A stretch of 64,000 nucleotides of DNA from Lysobacter sp. yr284 (GTDB taxonomy: Bacteria; Pseudomonadota; Gammaproteobacteria; Xanthomonadales; Xanthomonadaceae), in contig NZ_FNPT01000001.1 in assembly GCF_900107375.1 (NCBI RefSeq), positions 930,001 through 994,000 on the forward strand. Direction: 5' to 3'. The position numbers and the translations under genes are program-made. Shown here in pieces: positions 34,662 through 55,411 of this stretch (the first letter of the stretch is position 1; every line of letters begins with the position of its first letter). The notes under the pieces are model-generated. The model worked only from the letters and a program-made list of their open reading frames with translations. It did no database searches and was not told the DNA's origin.

Positions 34662-35133
34662 CGGATGGGGTCTCGGTCGGGCGGCGGACGGGCGGGGCGG
34701 AGGCGGCGCGGCGGCAGGCTCGGCACGATGCTAGCGGCGGGCCGGGACCGGCCCATGGCCGATTGGGGGGGATGACCGATGGCAGGGCCGGCGGCGGGCG
34801 TGCCCGGAACGGTGCGGTGGCGGCGATGCCGGGCGTTCGCGGCGGTGGGGTCGGCGCGTTGGGAGGGATCGGCGCGAGCGGATCGGAAGGCGTCGGGACT
34901 GAAGCCCCTCCCACAAAAGCCGCGGCTCCAGAACCTACGCACCGTCATCCCCGCGAAGGCCGGGATCCAGGGCCTCATCGCGGCAGGACGCTGAAGTCTC
35001 TGGATCCCCGCCTTCGCGGGGATGACGGCACACGGGACCCGCAGTGCCCGGCTCTTGTGGGAGGGACTTCAGTCCCGACGCCCCGCGATCGGCTCGCGAC
35101 GATCCGCCCCGGACGCCCGTCCCGGACACTGCC
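34662..35133. other. 472-base intergenic region dense in two repeat families
   Basis: It holds two family-1 elements (34890-34917 and 35054-35080) enclosing an inverted pair of family-2 elements (34943-34970 and 34998-35029), forming a nested palindrome. The ABC operon promoter should lie in 34662-34890. No gene was recognised. Confidence 0.6.
34890..35080. repeat. Nested inverted repeats: family 1 flanking a family-2 pair
   Basis: The outer arms are gtcgggactgaagcccctcc (34890-34917) and its inverse gggagggacttcagtcccga (35054-35080). The inner arms are gtcatccccgcgaaggccgg (34943-34970) and its inverse ccgccttcgcggggatgacg (34998-35029). The whole ~190 bases could fold into one long cruciform. 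Confidence 0.85.
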
Positions 35134-48348: not shown

Positions 48349-50457
48349 ATGACCGTCCGCCCCCGCCACCTGTTGCTGCCGCTGGCCCTCGCCGCCGCCG
48401 TGGCCGCCTGCGCCAAGCCCGAACCGACCGCGCCGGCCGCCGCGCCGCAGGCCGCCGCCGCGCCCGATGCCGGCGCCGCGCTCAAGCTCGACGAATCCAA
48501 GCTGCCGCAGCCGGTGCGGTTCGCCGCGACCGACCTGGACCCGGCCCGCAACGCCTGCGACAGCCTCACCGGTTACGTCAACGACAAGTGGTTCGCGGCC
48601 AACCCGATCCCCGGCGACCGCTCGTCGTGGGGCGTGTCGGACGTGCTCGCCGAGCGCTCGCTGGCGATCCAGCGCCAACTCGCCGAGCAGGCCGCCGGCG
48701 ACGCCAAGGCCGCCGGCGTGGAGAAGCTGATCGGCGACCTGTGGGCCACCGGCATGGACGAGGCCAAGATCAACGCCCAGGGCCTGGCGCCGCTGAAGGA
48801 CGAACTGGCGGCGATCGACGCGGTGGATTCGCCCGAGCGCGTGTCGGCCTACCTGCGCGACAGCGCCGCGCTCGGCCGCAACGTGCTGTTCGACTTCTCG
48901 CCGGAAGCCGACTTCAAGAATTCCGCGGTCAACCTGGCCTACGCCGTGCAGGGCGGGCTCGGCCTGCCCGACCGCGGCTATTACTTCGACGCCGACAAGC
49001 GCGACAAGCTCGCCGCCTACGGCAAGCACATCGCCAAGGTGCTGGAACTCGCCGGCGCCAACGCCGCGGATGCGCAAACCCAGGCCAAGGCCGTGCTCGA
49101 GTTCGAGACCCGGCTGGCGCGGGTGTCGCTGTCGAGCGAGCAGCTCTCGCGCGACGTCGCCCTGTACTACAACCCGATCAGCCCGGCCAAGGCCGACGAG
49201 CTGACGCCGAACTTCTCCTGGACCCGATTCTTCCAGGCCCAGGGCGTGGCCACGCCGAAGACGTTCTCGCTGGCCATGCCCGGCTTCCACCAGGAAGTCA
49301 GCAAGATGATCGCCGACGTGCCGGCCGCGACCTGGCGCGCGTTCCTGCGCTACCACGCCGTCGACAACGCCTCGCCCTACCTCGGCGACGCCTTCGTCGC
49401 CGAGAGCTTCGAGTTCCACGCCAAGACCATGCTCGGCCAGAAGGAGCCCAAGGCGCGCTGGAAGCGCGTGCTCGGCGGCATCGACGACCAGGCCGGCGAG
49501 GCGATGGGCCAGCTCTACGTCAAGGTCGCGTTCCCGCCGGACGCCAAGGCCCAGACCCAGGCGCTGGTGCAGCAGCTGCGCACCGCGCTGAAAGCGCGCA
49601 TCGAGAACCTGTCGTGGATGAGCGCCGACACCAAGAAGAAGGCGCTGGAGAAGTGGGCCAGCTTCACGCCCAAGATCGGCTACCCGGACAAGTGGCGCGA
49701 CTGGAGCGGCCTGGCCAGCGGCCGCGACAGTTACTACGCCAACGTCATGGCCGCCAACGAATTCAACTACAAGTGGCGCCTGGGCAAGATCGGCCAGCCG
49801 GTCGACAAGACCGAGTGGAACATGAGCCCGCAGACGGTCAACGCCTACTACAACCCGCTGCAGAACGAGATCGTGTTCCCGGCCGCGATCCTGCAGCCGC
49901 CGTTCTTCGATCCCAAGGCCGACGCGGCGATCAACTACGGCGGCATCGGCGCGGTGATCGGCCACGAGATGACCCACGGCTACGACGACCAGGGCGCGCG
50001 CTTCGACGCCCGCGGCAACCTCGCCGACTGGTGGACGCCGGCCGACGCCAAGGGCTTCGCCGCGCGCAGCCAGAAGCTGATCGAGCAGTTCGACGGCTAC
50101 GAGGCGGCGCCGGGGCTGAAGGTCAACGGCAAGCTGACCCTGGGCGAGAACATCGCCGACCTCGGCGGCCTGGCCACCGCCTACGACGCCATGCACCTGG
50201 CCGTGGGCGACACGCCCGACCCGAAGACCGACGGCTTCAGCCGCGACCAGCGCTTCTTCATGAGCTATGCGATGAGCTGGCGCGACCGCTACACCCCGGA
50301 CCTGCTCAAGGTGCTGGTCGCCTCCAACCCGCACGCCCCCAGCGACCAGCGCGCGATCGGCGCGCCGTCGAACCTGCCTGCGTATGCCGCCGCGTTCTCG
50401 TGCAAGCCCGGACAGGCGATGGTGCGCGACGGCGACCGCCAGGTGGTGATCTGGTGA
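48349..50457 (+). CDS. M13 family zinc metallopeptidase, lipoprotein (paralogue 1)
   Basis: The 702-residue protein has a lipoprotein signal (LALAAAVAACAKPE; lipobox VAAC) and a neprilysin-like M13 domain: DLDPARNACDSLTGYVNDKW, WMSADTKKKALEKWASFTPK, TVNAYYNPLQNEIVFPAAIL, zinc motif IGHEMTHGYDDQG (H539, H543) and third ligand in GENIADLGG (E600). It is expected to degrade peptides at the outer or inner membrane face. It is very similar to paralogue 2, which starts 270 bases downstream on the same strand, and less so to paralogue 3. Many near-identical blocks suggest recent duplication or gene conversion. Confidence 0.95.
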   Translation: MTVRPRHLLLPLALAAAVAACAKPEPTAPAAAPQAAAAPDAGAALKLDESKLPQPVRFAATDLDPARNACDSLTGYVNDKWFAANPIPGDRSSWGVSDVLAERSLAIQRQLAEQAAGDAKAAGVEKLIGDLWATGMDEAKINAQGLAPLKDELAAIDAVDSPERVSAYLRDSAALGRNVLFDFSPEADFKNSAVNLAYAVQGGLGLPDRGYYFDADKRDKLAAYGKHIAKVLELAGANAADAQTQAKAVLEFETRLARVSLSSEQLSRDVALYYNPISPAKADELTPNFSWTRFFQAQGVATPKTFSLAMPGFHQEVSKMIADVPAATWRAFLRYHAVDNASPYLGDAFVAESFEFHAKTMLGQKEPKARWKRVLGGIDDQAGEAMGQLYVKVAFPPDAKAQTQALVQQLRTALKARIENLSWMSADTKKKALEKWASFTPKIGYPDKWRDWSGLASGRDSYYANVMAANEFNYKWRLGKIGQPVDKTEWNMSPQTVNAYYNPLQNEIVFPAAILQPPFFDPKADAAINYGGIGAVIGHEMTHGYDDQGARFDARGNLADWWTPADAKGFAARSQKLIEQFDGYEAAPGLKVNGKLTLGENIADLGGLATAYDAMHLAVGDTPDPKTDGFSRDQRFFMSYAMSWRDRYTPDLLKVLVASNPHAPSDQRAIGAPSNLPAYAAAFSCKPGQAMVRDGDRQVVIW

Positions 50458-50727
50458 GCGGCCGGGAATGAGGGCAACCAGGGAACCGCCGGATTCGCGC
50501 AATCATGAACAGGCTAAACATCCCGCGTTCGCCCTCGTTTCCACCCGGTCTTCGCGGCCCTGCCGCAACATTACGAAGCCGTCACACATGACCTTCGACA
50601 CCCTGCGCGCGACCCGCGCGGGGCTATCGTCCGGCCGGTGTCCGGGCTGCGCGGCTGCCGCGCCGGCCCAGAATCGGCCACAATTCCCGCCTCGTTTCAC
50701 GCCTACGCCTTACGGCCGGAGCCCGCT

Positions 50728-52848
50728 GTGACCCTCAAGAAACCGCAAGTCCTGTTGCTGTCCGTCGCTATCGCCACCGCCGTGGCGGCCTGCGGCGGCA
50801 AAACCGAAGCCCCGGCCGCGAACGCGCCGGCCGCCGACCAGGCCGCCGCCAAGCCGGCCGAGCCCGCCGCGCTGACCCTCGACGAGGGCAAGCTGCAGAA
50901 GGTCAACCGCTTCGAGATCGCCGATCTGGACAGCAGCAAGGACGCCTGCGTCGACTTCGCCGGCTACGCCAACGGCAAGTGGCTCGCCGCCAACCCGATC
51001 CCGGGCGACCGCACCTCCTGGGGCGCGTTCGAAATGCTCGACGAGCGTTCCAACGACGTCCAGCACCAGCTCGCCGAGCAGGCCGCGGCCGACACCAAGG
51101 CCACCGGGGTGGAGAAGATCGTCGGCGACCTGTGGGCCACCGGCATGGACGAGGCCAAGATCAACGCCCAGGGCCTGGAGCCGCTGAAGGCCGACCTGGC
51201 CAAGATCGACGCCATCGACAGCCCCGAGAAGATCGCCGCCTACCTGCGCGACACCGCCGCGACCGGCGACAATCCGCTGTTCGGCTTCGGCGCCGAGGCC
51301 GACTTCAAGGATTCGGCCAACAACATCGCCTACGCCTCGCAGGGCGGCCTGAGCCTGCCGGACGCGCCGTACTACACCGACGCCAAGTTCAAGGACAAGC
51401 TGGCCGCGTACGAACAGCACGTGGCGAAGGTGCTGGAACTGGGCGGCGCGAAACCCGAGGACGCCGCCAAGCAGGCCAAGGACGTGATCGCGTTCGAGAC
51501 GCGCCTGGCCAAGGCCTCCAAGACCCGCGAGCAGCTCTCGCGCGACGTGTCGCTTTACTACAACCCGCTCAGCCCGGCCAAGGCCGACGAGCTGACCCCG
51601 AACTTCTCCTGGACCAAGTTCTTCGAGTCGCAGGGCGTGGCCACGCCGAAGATGTTCTCGCTGGCGGTGCCGGGCTTCCACCAGGAAGTCAGCAAGATGA
51701 TCGGCGACACCCCGGCCGCCGCGTGGCAGGCCTACCTGCGCTTCCACGCGATCGACGGCGCCTCGCCGTTCCTGTCCGACGCGTTCGTGCAGGAGAACTT
51801 CAACTTCTATTCCAAGACCCTGCGCGGCCAGAAGGAAATGAAGGACCGCTGGAAGCGCGTGCTCGACACCGTCGAGGGCCAGGCCGGCGAAGCGATGGGC
51901 CAGCTGTACGTCAAGGTCGCGTTCCCGGCCGAGTCCAAGCAGCGCATGCAGGCGCTGGTGGAGAACCTGCGCCAGGCGCTGAAGGTGCGCATCGAGAACC
52001 TGTCGTGGATGAGCGCCGACACCAAGAAGAAGGCGCTGGAGAAGTGGGCCAGCTTCACCCCGAAGATCGGCTACCCGGACAAGTGGCGCGACTGGAGCGG
52101 CCTGGCGACCAGCCGCGACAGCTACTACGCCAACGTCAAGGCGGCCAACCAGTTCAACTACAAGTGGAACCTGAGCAAGGTCGGCAAGCCGGTCGACAAG
52201 ACCGAGTGGGGCATGAGCCCGCAGACGGTCAACGCCTACTACAACCCGCTGCAGAACGAGATCGTGTTCCCGGCCGCGATCCTGCAGCCGCCGTTCTTCG
52301 ATCCCAAGGCCGACGATGCGGCCAACTACGGCGGCATCGGCGCGGTGATCGGCCATGAGATGACCCACGGCTACGACGACCAGGGTTCGCGCTTCGGCCC
52401 GACCGGCAACATGGAAGTGTGGTGGGCGCCGTCCGACGCCAAGGCGTTCTCGGGCCTGACCGGCAAGCTGATCAAGCAGTTCGACGGCTACACCGCGATC
52501 GGCGGGCAGAAGGTCAACGGCACCCACACCCTGGGCGAGAACATCGCCGACCTCGGCGGCCTGGCCACCGCGTACGACGCGATGAAGAAGGCCGCGGGCG
52601 AGACCCCGGACCCGAAGACCGACGGCCTGACCCGCGACCAGCGCTTCTTCCTCAACTGGGCCACGGTGTGGCGCCGCAACTTCACCCCGGACGAGGAGAA
52701 GATGCGCCTGCAGACCGACGAGCACGCGCTGGCCAACTTCCGCGCGATCGGCGCGCCGTCGAACCTGCCGTCGTTCGCCGCCGCGTTCTCGTGCAAGCCC
52801 GGCCAGCCGATGGTGCGCGAAGGCGACAAGCAGGTGATCATCTGGTGA
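50728..52848 (+). CDS. M13 family zinc metallopeptidase, lipoprotein (paralogue 2)
   Basis: The GTG start at 50728 with a GGAG site gives 706 residues with lipoprotein signal LLLSVAIATAVAACGGK. The M13 domain has the same motifs as paralogue 1, including NAYYNPLQNEIVFPAAI, IGHEMTHGYDDQG (H543, H547) and GENIADLGG (E604). Two large blocks are nearly identical to paralogue 1 (RIENLSWMSADTKKKALEKW and SPQTVNAYYNPLQNEIVFPA). The N-terminal mature region differs more, so substrates or partners may differ. An intrinsic terminator at 52888 ends the transcript. Confidence 0.95.
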   Translation: MTLKKPQVLLLSVAIATAVAACGGKTEAPAANAPAADQAAAKPAEPAALTLDEGKLQKVNRFEIADLDSSKDACVDFAGYANGKWLAANPIPGDRTSWGAFEMLDERSNDVQHQLAEQAAADTKATGVEKIVGDLWATGMDEAKINAQGLEPLKADLAKIDAIDSPEKIAAYLRDTAATGDNPLFGFGAEADFKDSANNIAYASQGGLSLPDAPYYTDAKFKDKLAAYEQHVAKVLELGGAKPEDAAKQAKDVIAFETRLAKASKTREQLSRDVSLYYNPLSPAKADELTPNFSWTKFFESQGVATPKMFSLAVPGFHQEVSKMIGDTPAAAWQAYLRFHAIDGASPFLSDAFVQENFNFYSKTLRGQKEMKDRWKRVLDTVEGQAGEAMGQLYVKVAFPAESKQRMQALVENLRQALKVRIENLSWMSADTKKKALEKWASFTPKIGYPDKWRDWSGLATSRDSYYANVKAANQFNYKWNLSKVGKPVDKTEWGMSPQTVNAYYNPLQNEIVFPAAILQPPFFDPKADDAANYGGIGAVIGHEMTHGYDDQGSRFGPTGNMEVWWAPSDAKAFSGLTGKLIKQFDGYTAIGGQKVNGTHTLGENIADLGGLATAYDAMKKAAGETPDPKTDGLTRDQRFFLNWATVWRRNFTPDEEKMRLQTDEHALANFRAIGAPSNLPSFAAAFSCKPGQPMVREGDKQVIIW

Positions 52849-52887: not shown

Positions 52888-52920
52888 ACGAAGGCCCGGG
52901 ATTCCCGGGCCTTCGTTGTT
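52888..52920 (+). terminator. Intrinsic terminator after M13 paralogue 2
   Basis: The stem cgaaggcccggg / cccgggccttcg with a 3-base loop is followed by ttgttt. It lies 40 bases past the stop codon and separates paralogue 2 from paralogue 3. Confidence 0.82.
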
Positions 52921-52960
52921 TCGGGATTCGACAGCGGCTAGCCGCAACGTCGCGTCAAGA

Positions 52961-53047
52961 ACGTCATCCCCGCGAACGCGGGGATCCAGAGACTTCAGAG
53001 TCATGTCGCGACGACGCCCTGGTTCCCCGCCTTCGCGGGGACGACGG
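52961..53047. repeat. Inverted pair of family-2 repeats
   Basis: The arms acgtcatccccgcgaacgcg (52961-52991) and ccccgccttcgcggggacga (53018-53047) are near-perfect inverse copies. They share the gtcatccccgcgaa core with the elements at 34.9 kb. Confidence 0.88.
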
Positions 53048-53186: not shown

Positions 53187-55214
53187 ATGGACTACGCGAT
53201 GCTGACCCTACGCCCGCTTGCCTGCGCCCTCGCCCTGAGCCTGATCGCCGGCCTGGCCTCGCCCGCCGCCGACGCCGCCAAGAAGAAGGCGCCCGCCAAG
53301 CCCAAGGCCCCGGCCGTCGCCAACGCCTGCACCGACTTCTACGGCAACGCCAACGCCGACTGGCTGCGCGCCAACCCGCTGGCCGGCAACGCCTCGGTCT
53401 CGGCGCTGGAGACCCTGGCCAACAACGCCCGCCGCCAGCAGCTGGAACTGCTCAACACCGCGATGACCGCGCCGCAGGGCAACGTGCAGAAGCTGCTCGG
53501 CGACTTCTGGGCCAGCGGCCTGGACGAGGCCGCGGTCGAACGCGACGGCTCGCAGCCGATCGCCCCGCTGCTGGGCCGCATCAACGCGATCAAGAAGTCC
53601 AAGGACATCCCGGCCTCGATCGCCGCCCTGCACCAGGTCGGCATCCCGGTGCTGTTCAACTTCGGCGCCGACATCGACCTGCAGGACCTGGAACGCCACA
53701 TCGGCTACTTCAGCCAGGGCGGCCTGGGCCTGCCCGACCCGGCCTACTACACCCGCACCGACAACGACACCCGCCAGCTGCTGGCGCAGTACAACGTCTA
53801 CGTGCAGAAGATCCTGACCCTGACCGGCACGCCGAAGGACAAGCTCGCCGCCGAGTCGCAGTTGGTGATCGACCTGGAAACCCGCCTGGCCCGCGCCTCC
53901 AAGCCGCTGGCCGACCTGCGCGATCCGCGCGCCAACTACGCGCCGGTCGCCACCAACACCCTGGGCAAGACCTACAAGCGCCTGCAGCTGGGCGATTTCC
54001 TCAAGGCCCAGGGCGTCAGCGACGACAGCGTGTCGATGGCCAACCCGGCGCTGTTCGCCGAGATGGACAAGCTGATCGACCAGCTCAAGCCCGAACAGTG
54101 GAAGACCTACCTGCGCTGGCGCATCGGCGACTCGATGGCGCCGTACCTGGCCAAGCCGTTCCGCGACGCCGAGTTCGACTTCCGCGGCAAGATCCTGCGC
54201 GGCCAGCGCGAGCAGCCGGCGCGCCCGCAGGCGGTGCTCGACGCGATCACCCTGGCCGCCGGCCCGATGGTCGGCCACGAGTACGCCGCGCGCTACCTGC
54301 CCGCCGCCACCGACCAGCGCGCCGAGCAGATCGCCCAACAGGTGCGCGACGCGCTGGGCAAGGCCATCGACGCCGACACCCGCTTCGGCGAGGCGGTCAA
54401 GAACGAGGCGCGGGCCAAGCTGGGCAAGCTCAAGATCGAGATCGGCACGCCCAAGCGCGACCTCGACTACACCGTGCAGCCGATGGGCCGCGGCAGCTTC
54501 GGCAGCAACATGCTGGTCGCCTCGACCTGGCGCCACCGCGAGGAAATGAAGCGGATCGGCCGCGGCAACGCCGACCGCCGCTGGGACGTGCTGCCGCAGG
54601 AGCCGTCGCTGGCCTACGACATCGCCCAGAACCGGCTGATCGTGACCGCGGCGATGCTGCAGGCGCCGGTGCTCGACATGAGCCGCCCGGAGTCCGCGCA
54701 GTACGGCTCCTTCGGCGCCCTGGTCGGCGCCGAGCTGACCCACGGCTTCGACAGCCGCGGCCGCTACGTCAACGCCAAGCAGGAAGTGCGCGACTGGTGG
54801 ACCCCGGCCGAAGTCTCGGCCTGGGACGCGCTCGCCGCGCGCGTGGCCGCGCAGTACAGCGCCGAATCCTGGCCGGGCCTGGGCTCGGTCAAGGTCAACG
54901 GCAACCAGGTGCGCGACGTCGCCGTCGCCGACCAGGCCGGCGTCGAACTGGCCTGGAGCGCGTACCGCGCCGCCCAGCCGGCCGCGAACAAGGACGCCAA
55001 CCAGTCCTTCTTCAAGGCCTGGGCCGGCGTGTGGGCGCAGCAGCTGAGTCCGGAAGCGGCGGCGCAGCGCGCAGCCTCGGGCATCCACGCCCCCGGCCAG
55101 TGGCGCACCAACCTGCCGCTGTCGAACCTGCCCGCGTTCGCCGAGGCTTACGCCTGCAAGGCCGGCACCGCGATGACGCGCAAGGCCGACCAGCAGATCA
55201 AGGTTTTTCCCTGA
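53187..55214 (+). CDS. Catalytically degenerate M13 peptidase homologue (paralogue 3)
   Basis: The 675-residue protein (ATG 53199 is an alternative start) has a signal peptide (LACALALSLIAGLASPAADA) but no lipobox. Alignment by eye with paralogues 1 and 2 holds along the length (CTDFYGNANADWLRANPLAG; LSNLPAFAEAYACKAGTAMT). The active site is lost: HExxH reads AELTH (A515, H519), the third zinc ligand region GENIADLGG reads RDVAVADQAG (E replaced by V578), and NAYY is LAYD. With two of three zinc ligands gone it cannot be a normal M13 enzyme. It may be an inhibitor, chaperone or binding partner of its active paralogues. A terminator follows. Confidence 0.9.
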   Translation: MDYAMLTLRPLACALALSLIAGLASPAADAAKKKAPAKPKAPAVANACTDFYGNANADWLRANPLAGNASVSALETLANNARRQQLELLNTAMTAPQGNVQKLLGDFWASGLDEAAVERDGSQPIAPLLGRINAIKKSKDIPASIAALHQVGIPVLFNFGADIDLQDLERHIGYFSQGGLGLPDPAYYTRTDNDTRQLLAQYNVYVQKILTLTGTPKDKLAAESQLVIDLETRLARASKPLADLRDPRANYAPVATNTLGKTYKRLQLGDFLKAQGVSDDSVSMANPALFAEMDKLIDQLKPEQWKTYLRWRIGDSMAPYLAKPFRDAEFDFRGKILRGQREQPARPQAVLDAITLAAGPMVGHEYAARYLPAATDQRAEQIAQQVRDALGKAIDADTRFGEAVKNEARAKLGKLKIEIGTPKRDLDYTVQPMGRGSFGSNMLVASTWRHREEMKRIGRGNADRRWDVLPQEPSLAYDIAQNRLIVTAAMLQAPVLDMSRPESAQYGSFGALVGAELTHGFDSRGRYVNAKQEVRDWWTPAEVSAWDALAARVAAQYSAESWPGLGSVKVNGNQVRDVAVADQAGVELAWSAYRAAQPAANKDANQSFFKAWAGVWAQQLSPEAAAQRAASGIHAPGQWRTNLPLSNLPAFAEAYACKAGTAMTRKADQQIKVFP

Positions 55215-55239
55215 TCGCGGCATCCAGGCATGAGCGATG

Positions 55240-55267
55240 AAAAAGCCCGGCGCCTGCCGGGCTTTTT
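55240..55267 (+). terminator. Intrinsic terminator after M13 paralogue 3
   Basis: A 12-bp stem (aaaaagcccggc / gccgggcttttt) has a 4-base loop. The T run lies about 25 bases after the stop codon. Because of its symmetry it could also act on the minus strand. Confidence 0.92.
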
Positions 55268-55411
55268 CTTTGCGGCGGCCTCCGACGGCGCCGATGTCGC
55301 GCCGCCTCCCGCAGCCGCGGCGCGAGCCGCGAGCAACCGCAAAGATTCGCGCAAGCGCCATTGCCGAAGCCCGGCCAACCGGCGCAGCGCGCAGCCCGCG
55401 CCACGCGAAGG

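Follow-up and report, generated by a model that had tools for sequence, protein, structure and literature searches.

A zinc-site-degenerate M13 subfamily of the Lysobacteraceae, putatively of periplasmic pseudopeptidases, encoded downstream of a canonical M13 lipoprotein

The window analysed here, a stretch of 64,000 nucleotides from Lysobacter sp. yr284 (contig NZ_FNPT01000001.1, positions 930,001 to 994,000), carries three M13 genes in tandem on the forward strand, in the order A1, A2 and D3. The third of these (D3, 53187-55214) encodes a putative pseudopeptidase of 675 residues in which A515/E516/H519 replace HExxH, V578 replaces the ligand Glu and S474 replaces the Asn of NAYY. Judged from the aligned sequences, decay of the zinc site with the rest of the protein conserved is the pattern across the whole family, and describes these proteins better than A515 and V578 being fixed everywhere. 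The reading preferred here is that D3 is a soluble periplasmic pseudopeptidase of a Lysobacteraceae-specific subfamily, encoded 3' of a canonical M13 lipoprotein, and that it would bind peptides without cleaving them; as a whole this is put forward tentatively, at somewhat less than an even chance.

The open frame of D3 extends over the whole of 53187-55214 and both M13 domains were matched above their cut-offs, PF05649 (Peptidase_M13_N) with E 6.3e-83 and 279.7 bits (cut-off 32) and PF01431 (Peptidase_M13) with E 4.4e-38 and 131.4 bits (cut-off 24.5), in agreement with the full-length, intact frame reported in the first-pass annotation of this DNA. The source genome contains six M13 matches, and of these D3 has the weakest score for the catalytic domain (134.9 bits, compared with 210.8-240 bits for the other five). 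The NCBIfam PepO equivalog NF052391 (cut-off 1000 bits) was missed by D3 (164.9 bits) and also by A1 and A2 (316.8 and 340.6 bits, respectively). D3 is 93% identical to its counterpart in Lysobacter enzymogenes ATCC 29487.

Family positions are given in neprilysin numbering (N542, A543, Y545, H583, E584, H587, E646, D650, H711 and R717), positioned via the motifs of A2. Alignment with A1 and A2 placed AELTH at codons 515-519 (54729-54743, forward strand) in the position of HExxH, and Val (GTC) at codon 578 (54918-54920, forward strand) in the position of the zinc-ligand Glu, both as previously annotated. NAYY had also been described as changed, to LAYD; the Asn and the Ala are indeed lost, but the replacement is S474-L-A-Y477, one residue earlier, and the last Tyr is retained. 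An alignment artefact was considered for this motif and ruled out, the register being fixed by PQ before and QN after it, free of gaps. The catalytic Glu516, D582, H634 and R640 are retained in the same alignment, D582 and R640 representing the D650/R717 pair. Because two of the three zinc ligands and the NAYY Asn are lost, we infer that D3 of the window has no catalytic zinc and no M13 peptidase activity. In Shewanella PepS, according to the available part of the published account (PMC4701951), the substitution E592D, at the position of V578, abolishes activity completely, as do E532A, D538N, D596A and R660K, and H654A leaves little.

The predicted structure of D3 (mean pLDDT 89.4, pTM 0.86, residues 1-42 below 50) found its best matches among M13 enzymes, with TfPepO aligning at Z 42.1 and 3.0 Å over 630 residues and open-state Zmp1 at Z 39.0 and 2.7 Å over 629 residues. 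The rmsd to inhibitor-bound neprilysin (1dmt) was 5.3 Å, which may reflect only the open lobe arrangement in the model. D3 is therefore modelled, at the level of a prediction, with the normal two-lobed neprilysin fold and its chamber.

Some M13 match at E 1e-30 was present in 393 of the 395 genomes of the family, and a D3-type best match in about 323 of the 395 (hand count; E <=1e-190, plus the split gene of genome G259). Motifs were read in 89 distinct core D3 sequences, with sequence duplicates, frames shorter than 450 aa and matches shorter than 550 residues excluded, and these 89 form one supported clade (SH-aLRT 100). D3 of the window lies in this clade, has lost N542 and contains the conserved block 417-487 described below, and is assigned to the subfamily on these grounds. 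Six divergent third-slot rows (L056, L057, L058, L077, L079 and L080) fall outside the supported core clade and are hence not among the 89; in each of the six N542 is missing, E584 is replaced by Gln and one or more zinc ligands are lost, with D650 and R717 retained.

Across the 89 core sequences D650, R717 and Y545 are retained throughout, and zinc ligands are lost to very different extents: none in 30 proteins, one in 27, two in 28 and three in 4, with zinc-site variants in other D3 lineages including HExxR, RELxH, TQLSR and more. With the active-site columns excluded from tree building, the smallest possible count of kept/lost changes, which carries no direction, was 8 for H583, 5 for H587, 11 for E646, 11 for H711 and 3 for E584, and was 0 for N542, D650 and R717. 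As the outgroups are canonical, loss is the natural reading of the repeated zinc-ligand changes. N542, H583, E584, D650, H711 and R717 do not vary among 75 A1/A2-type rows; H587 is present in 73 and E646 in 74, and the rows that deviate at these two positions, L082 and L083, are relatives basal to the D3 clade.

The full set of H583, E584, H587 and E646 is present in 30 of the 89 core sequences and H711 accompanies it in 29 of these 30, so that some zinc-intact members may still bind zinc or cleave. An explanation built on them would have the zinc-intact D3 proteins as working peptidases of altered specificity, with activity lost later in the window's lineage and others, where a second function or none would be left. 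The retention of E584 (Glu516 in the window) in 85 of 89 adds to its case and is a point against a dead-site reading, this residue not being required of a fully dead site. The link between H711 and an intact zinc site (29/30 against 33/59 in other D3) was not significant on five independent branch pairs. Against working peptidases, N542 is absent from all 89 sequences (replaced by Ala in 62, Ser in 23, Thr in 3 and Val in 1), yet every one of the 75 A1/A2-type rows has Asn there; the zinc-broken members are as well conserved elsewhere as the intact ones, as set out below; and the stem branches of the window's zinc-broken clade and its zinc-intact sister are alike (0.10 and 0.096, respectively). 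We regard this explanation as improbable.

The combination of Ala and Val found in the window occurs in 14 distinct sequences forming one clade (SH-aLRT 100), in all of which A515 is encoded by GCC and V578 by GTC. In the sister Lysobacter clade all five distinct sequences read HELSH and DENIADIAG, with the ligand Glu present, and the changes to A515 and V578 both map to the single branch leading to the window's clade. The first-pass annotation had spoken of a conserved dead peptidase and had taken orthologues keeping HExxH as evidence to the contrary. Conservation of the two changes was found throughout the window's own clade and was absent from the sister clade, and HExxH-keeping orthologues do occur, in the sister clade (5/5) and, with the full set, in 30 of the 89. 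As the sister clade and these 30 keep HExxH and the Glu, A515 and V578 are lineage-specific, and the conserved feature, as far as the alignments go, is a subfamily with an unconstrained zinc site rather than A515 and V578 themselves.

Slow decay, with D3 as a pseudogene in the making, would account for the lost zinc site, and part of the substitution data point in that direction. The median dN/dS is 0.281 in the zinc-broken clade (91 pairs) against 0.134 in the zinc-intact sister (10 pairs), or 0.144 (16 pairs) against 0.109 (6 pairs) when dS is limited to 0.05-0.2. In ten pairs with the window, NG86 dN/dS was higher in D3 than in A2 in six and lower in four (for example, 0.165 and 0.190 for D3 and A2, respectively, with G252, 0.325 and 0.243 with L. 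enzymogenes, and 0.285 and 0.384 with ISL-50), absolute NG86 values being unreliable because of the bias introduced by a GC3 of 0.969. The closest pair, with G293, gave 0.215 for D3 against 0.077 for A2, contrary to equality, and far pairs gave 0.585-0.726 against 0.566-0.597 with dS saturating. The D3 gene of G259 is split between two frames and that of G011 is perhaps so, lying in two adjoining D3-like pieces, through assembly error or a real frameshift. However, no internal stop was present among the matches listed, a single codon is used for each of A515 and V578 in 14/14 sequences, and the same hand count puts the gene in about 323 of the 395 genomes. With the two residues fixed in the 14 sequences and dN/dS near that of A2, decay is very unlikely, and it was rejected for frames that are intact, codons that are fixed and dN/dS near that of A2; the earlier statement that the gene is not decaying stands, with the predicted fold also intact.

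Constraint on D3 was compared with that on A2 over 47 of 52 matched loci kept after a 95% identity filter, the mean identity over these 47 genomes being 65% for D3 and 73% for A2. H583, H587, E646, H711 and N542, none of which varies in A2 across these genomes, lie in D3 at the 63rd, 51st, 83rd, 61st and 58th percentiles of column variability, respectively, and neither protein varies at E584, D650, Y545 or R717. Conserved residues outside the active site are kept at 0.982 in zinc-intact members (n=30) and 0.978 in zinc-broken members (n=59; p 0.77). This equal conservation elsewhere is the main argument for a shared D3 function that is independent of zinc.

A residue unlike that of A2 is conserved in D3 at 98 columns, 33 of which lie in a block spanning residues 417-487 (54435-54647, forward strand) that includes the former NAYY strand, against 10.5 expected (hypergeometric p 6e-12). 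The interval was picked post hoc, a choice corrected for by permutation over all windows, in which 2000 random sets gave at most 23 columns in any 70-residue window. The consensus of the block reads lkIE.G.P.rDlDy.vQPMGRGSFG.NmLIAStWrHreEMkRIG.gnadRRWdVLPQ.P.laYD.aqNRLivTAA.LQ, and the position of the NAYY strand inside it suggests that it lines the substrate chamber.

In a wider tree, D3, the divergent third-slot genes and the basal L081-L083 form one clade of 23 rows (SH-aLRT 100), whose members all come from this family except those of the metagenome-assembled genome (MAG) G717 and of a Rhizobium MAG (L057). Only a very short branch separates the gene of L057 from its Arenimonas malthae counterpart (L058), and the L057 contig is for this reason probably misbinned. 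The basal relatives L081-L083 retain NAYY or NVFY although zinc ligands are already missing from two of the three; the order in which the Asn and the zinc ligands were lost therefore varied between branches. A second, very divergent and apparently dead M13 type (QQMSL/QQLAL) was observed in L056 (10534-13299), L195 (6640-8628), L057 and L058; in L056 (Arenimonas) and L195 (genus g42) it occupies the third tandem slot and reads QQMSL and AQN(A/Q)AD.

Spread of D3 beyond the family was rejected for the genomes sampled in class- and order-level searches. At class level (E 1e-60) matches came from 22 of 274 genomes, of which 19 do not belong to the family, and the 21 rows read from these 19 genomes all carry HExxH and Asn at the NAYY position (one as NAIN). 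At order level (E 1e-105) 16 extra-family genomes matched, and of nine read, eight were canonical (33-37% identity to D3) and one was D3-type. Outside the family a single D3-type gene was seen, L190, 58% identical, in MAG G717 of family f181, a genome that is 77% complete; its presence there is perhaps due to transfer or misbinning.

The neighbours A1 (48349-50457) and A2 (50722-52848), both on the forward strand, read HEMTH, GENIADLGG and NAYY and have lipobox-type N-termini. Both had been described as active paralogues; their motifs are canonical, and that they are active peptidases is probable on these motifs. In the tree A1 clusters with the A1 genes of closely related genomes, next to A2, and so seems to have arisen by duplication of A2 at the level of Lysobacter; the orthologues of A2 are the usual gene upstream of D3. 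A different second M13 gene stands in the tandem in some other genera. The N-terminus of D3 has a probable Sec signal region of about 30 codons (53187-53276, forward strand) without a lipobox Cys when judged by eye, which agrees with the signal peptide annotated earlier. A lipobox pattern was found in 61 of 66 A2 rows and in 8 of 95 D3 rows, and the latter were not accepted as true lipoboxes, four of them falling on the conserved Cys48 and the other four (L035, L043, L044 and L053) within the hydrophobic core. Since the lipobox is missing from D3 rows, inspection by eye predicts D3 to be a soluble periplasmic or a secreted protein.

A terminator-like hairpin with a 13-bp stem and a T-rich flank, GAAAAAGCCCGGC-GCCT-GCCGGGCTTTTTC, lies 3' of D3 (55239-55268, forward strand) and corresponds to the downstream terminator reported previously; another, ACGAAGGCCCGGG-ATT-CCCGGGCCTTCGT and its T-rich tail, is found in the A2-D3 spacer (52888-52925, forward strand). 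A standard terminator scan returned none on the forward strand, missing both of these GC-rich hairpins of the window, and a sigma-70 scan found no promoter. A purpose-made hairpin scan identified stems of at least 7 bp in 50 of 56 A2-D3 spacers against 10 of 56 mononucleotide-shuffled spacers, the hairpins being GC-rich and often of the type AAGGCCCGG..CCGGGCCTT. A 29-base palindromic, REP-like repeat of the type GTCATCCCCGCGAA..GCGGGGATCCAGAG was also observed at 52963-52991, 34944-34972 and 34998-35026, three copies at <=3 mismatches in the window where none is expected.

Gene order bears on the main alternative to peptide capture, in which D3 would be a partner or chaperone of A2, and of A1 where present, stabilising, activating or restraining it in the manner of the dead subunit of M16B peptidases or the mitochondrial processing peptidase (MPP). 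Upstream sequence of 2.6 kb or more was available for 56 distinct D3 genes (3 of 59 loci being left out as second copies); in 54 of them a same-strand M13 gene lies upstream, at <=550 bp in 48 and at 0.9-5.3 kb in six. The 25 of 34 genomes whose best match falls in the D3 clade (basal rows included) all have a further M13 match, but such one-way co-occurrence is weak evidence, A2 being more widespread than D3. Precedents for association exist in dead/active metallopeptidase heterodimers, MPP and prokaryotic M16B (accessible text of PMC11266112), and in the nematode H-gal-GP complex, which according to the accessible portion of PMC7173941 contains several M13 proteins (structure match 6row). 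Against a partnership, 42 of the 56 distinct A2-D3 spacers examined in the family contain a hairpin with at least four T in its tail, and the two genes are for this reason probably not on one transcript; a lipobox typifies A2 and none was accepted as real in D3; and for L101 and L112 the upstream M13 gene is absent from the 6 kb examined. A partner role is rated as unlikely, while still carrying appreciable weight.

The first-pass annotation had suggested an inhibitor, decoy, receptor or chaperone role, and all four are kept here as candidates. The preferred reading, peptide capture by D3, may be set out as a sequence of steps. As read from the sequences, the NAYY Asn was lost before the core of the D3 subfamily radiated, part of the cleft-edge region was replaced by the subfamily's own conserved block, and the zinc ligands then changed repeatedly, with A515 and V578 becoming fixed in the window's lineage. 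The product would fold as a two-lobed chamber without catalytic zinc or peptide hydrolysis and, less certainly, would bind peptides in the old chamber via the Arg640-Asp582 pair and block 417-487. D3 could then hold, shield or deliver peptides that, left free, would be cleaved by the M13 lipoprotein enzymes encoded beside it. That it binds peptides in the old chamber and protects or presents them, as has been suggested for the Drosophila protein Nepl15, is a possibility that we favour by analogy while doubting it slightly more than we credit it. Retention of D650 and R717 is no proof of peptide binding, because these two residues have a part in positioning the zinc site as well (PMC4701951, available part). 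A fuller version, in which loss of the Asn came first and freed the zinc site, many genera then eroding it independently as a new surface for peptides or a partner was fixed, giving a periplasmic peptide-capture protein derived from a neprilysin and encoded next to the active enzymes it would serve or oppose, is offered with greater reserve, as a conjecture with distinctly less than an even chance.

D3 presents one gene in one place in many genera, with zinc sites ranging from intact to wholly lost, and thereby a natural series for following the conversion of an enzyme into a non-enzyme, with the questions of which residue is lost first and what role a metal-free fold may take. It also cautions against assuming that all matches to M13 models in this group are enzymes.

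Among known systems, TfPepO, PgPepO, Zmp1 and Shewanella PepS have the fold and both Pfam domains in common with D3, but are active enzymes with the zinc site present, whereas D3 of the window lacks two ligands and the NAYY Asn. The M16B heterodimers and the MPP alpha subunit resemble D3 in placing a dead paralogue beside an active one (PMC11266112, available part); they belong to a family unrelated to M13 and form heterodimers, which for D3 would be hypothetical. Wasp venom metalloproteases were considered as a precedent and set aside, as the degenerate motifs described in the accessible text of PMC8310156 are of ADAM type and not M13. Pseudopeptidases of the neprilysin family have already been described in insects, and M13 expansions have been reported in Drosophila (PMC2259306, available part); in the accessible portions of the open-licence literature searched, the M13 pseudopeptidases found described were insect ones only, with none from bacteria. 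Gone early (Goe), a Drosophila M13 pseudopeptidase, has Val at the third zinc ligand as D3 does but, unlike D3, is a type II membrane protein with EAxxD and a suggested EGF-ligand trap (PMC11266112, same part). Nepl15, another Drosophila M13 protein, is from an insect and not closely related to D3, its catalytic Glu is also changed, and the zinc site of the D3 subfamily, unlike that of Nepl15, differs between members, one third of which retain the full site. According to the available part of PMC7822871, Nepl15 is nevertheless like D3 in that two zinc ligands are changed, the counterparts of Arg717 and Asp650 are kept and the changes are conserved within its own clade; it is thought to be secreted, and has been proposed to bind and sequester peptides of its active paralogues.
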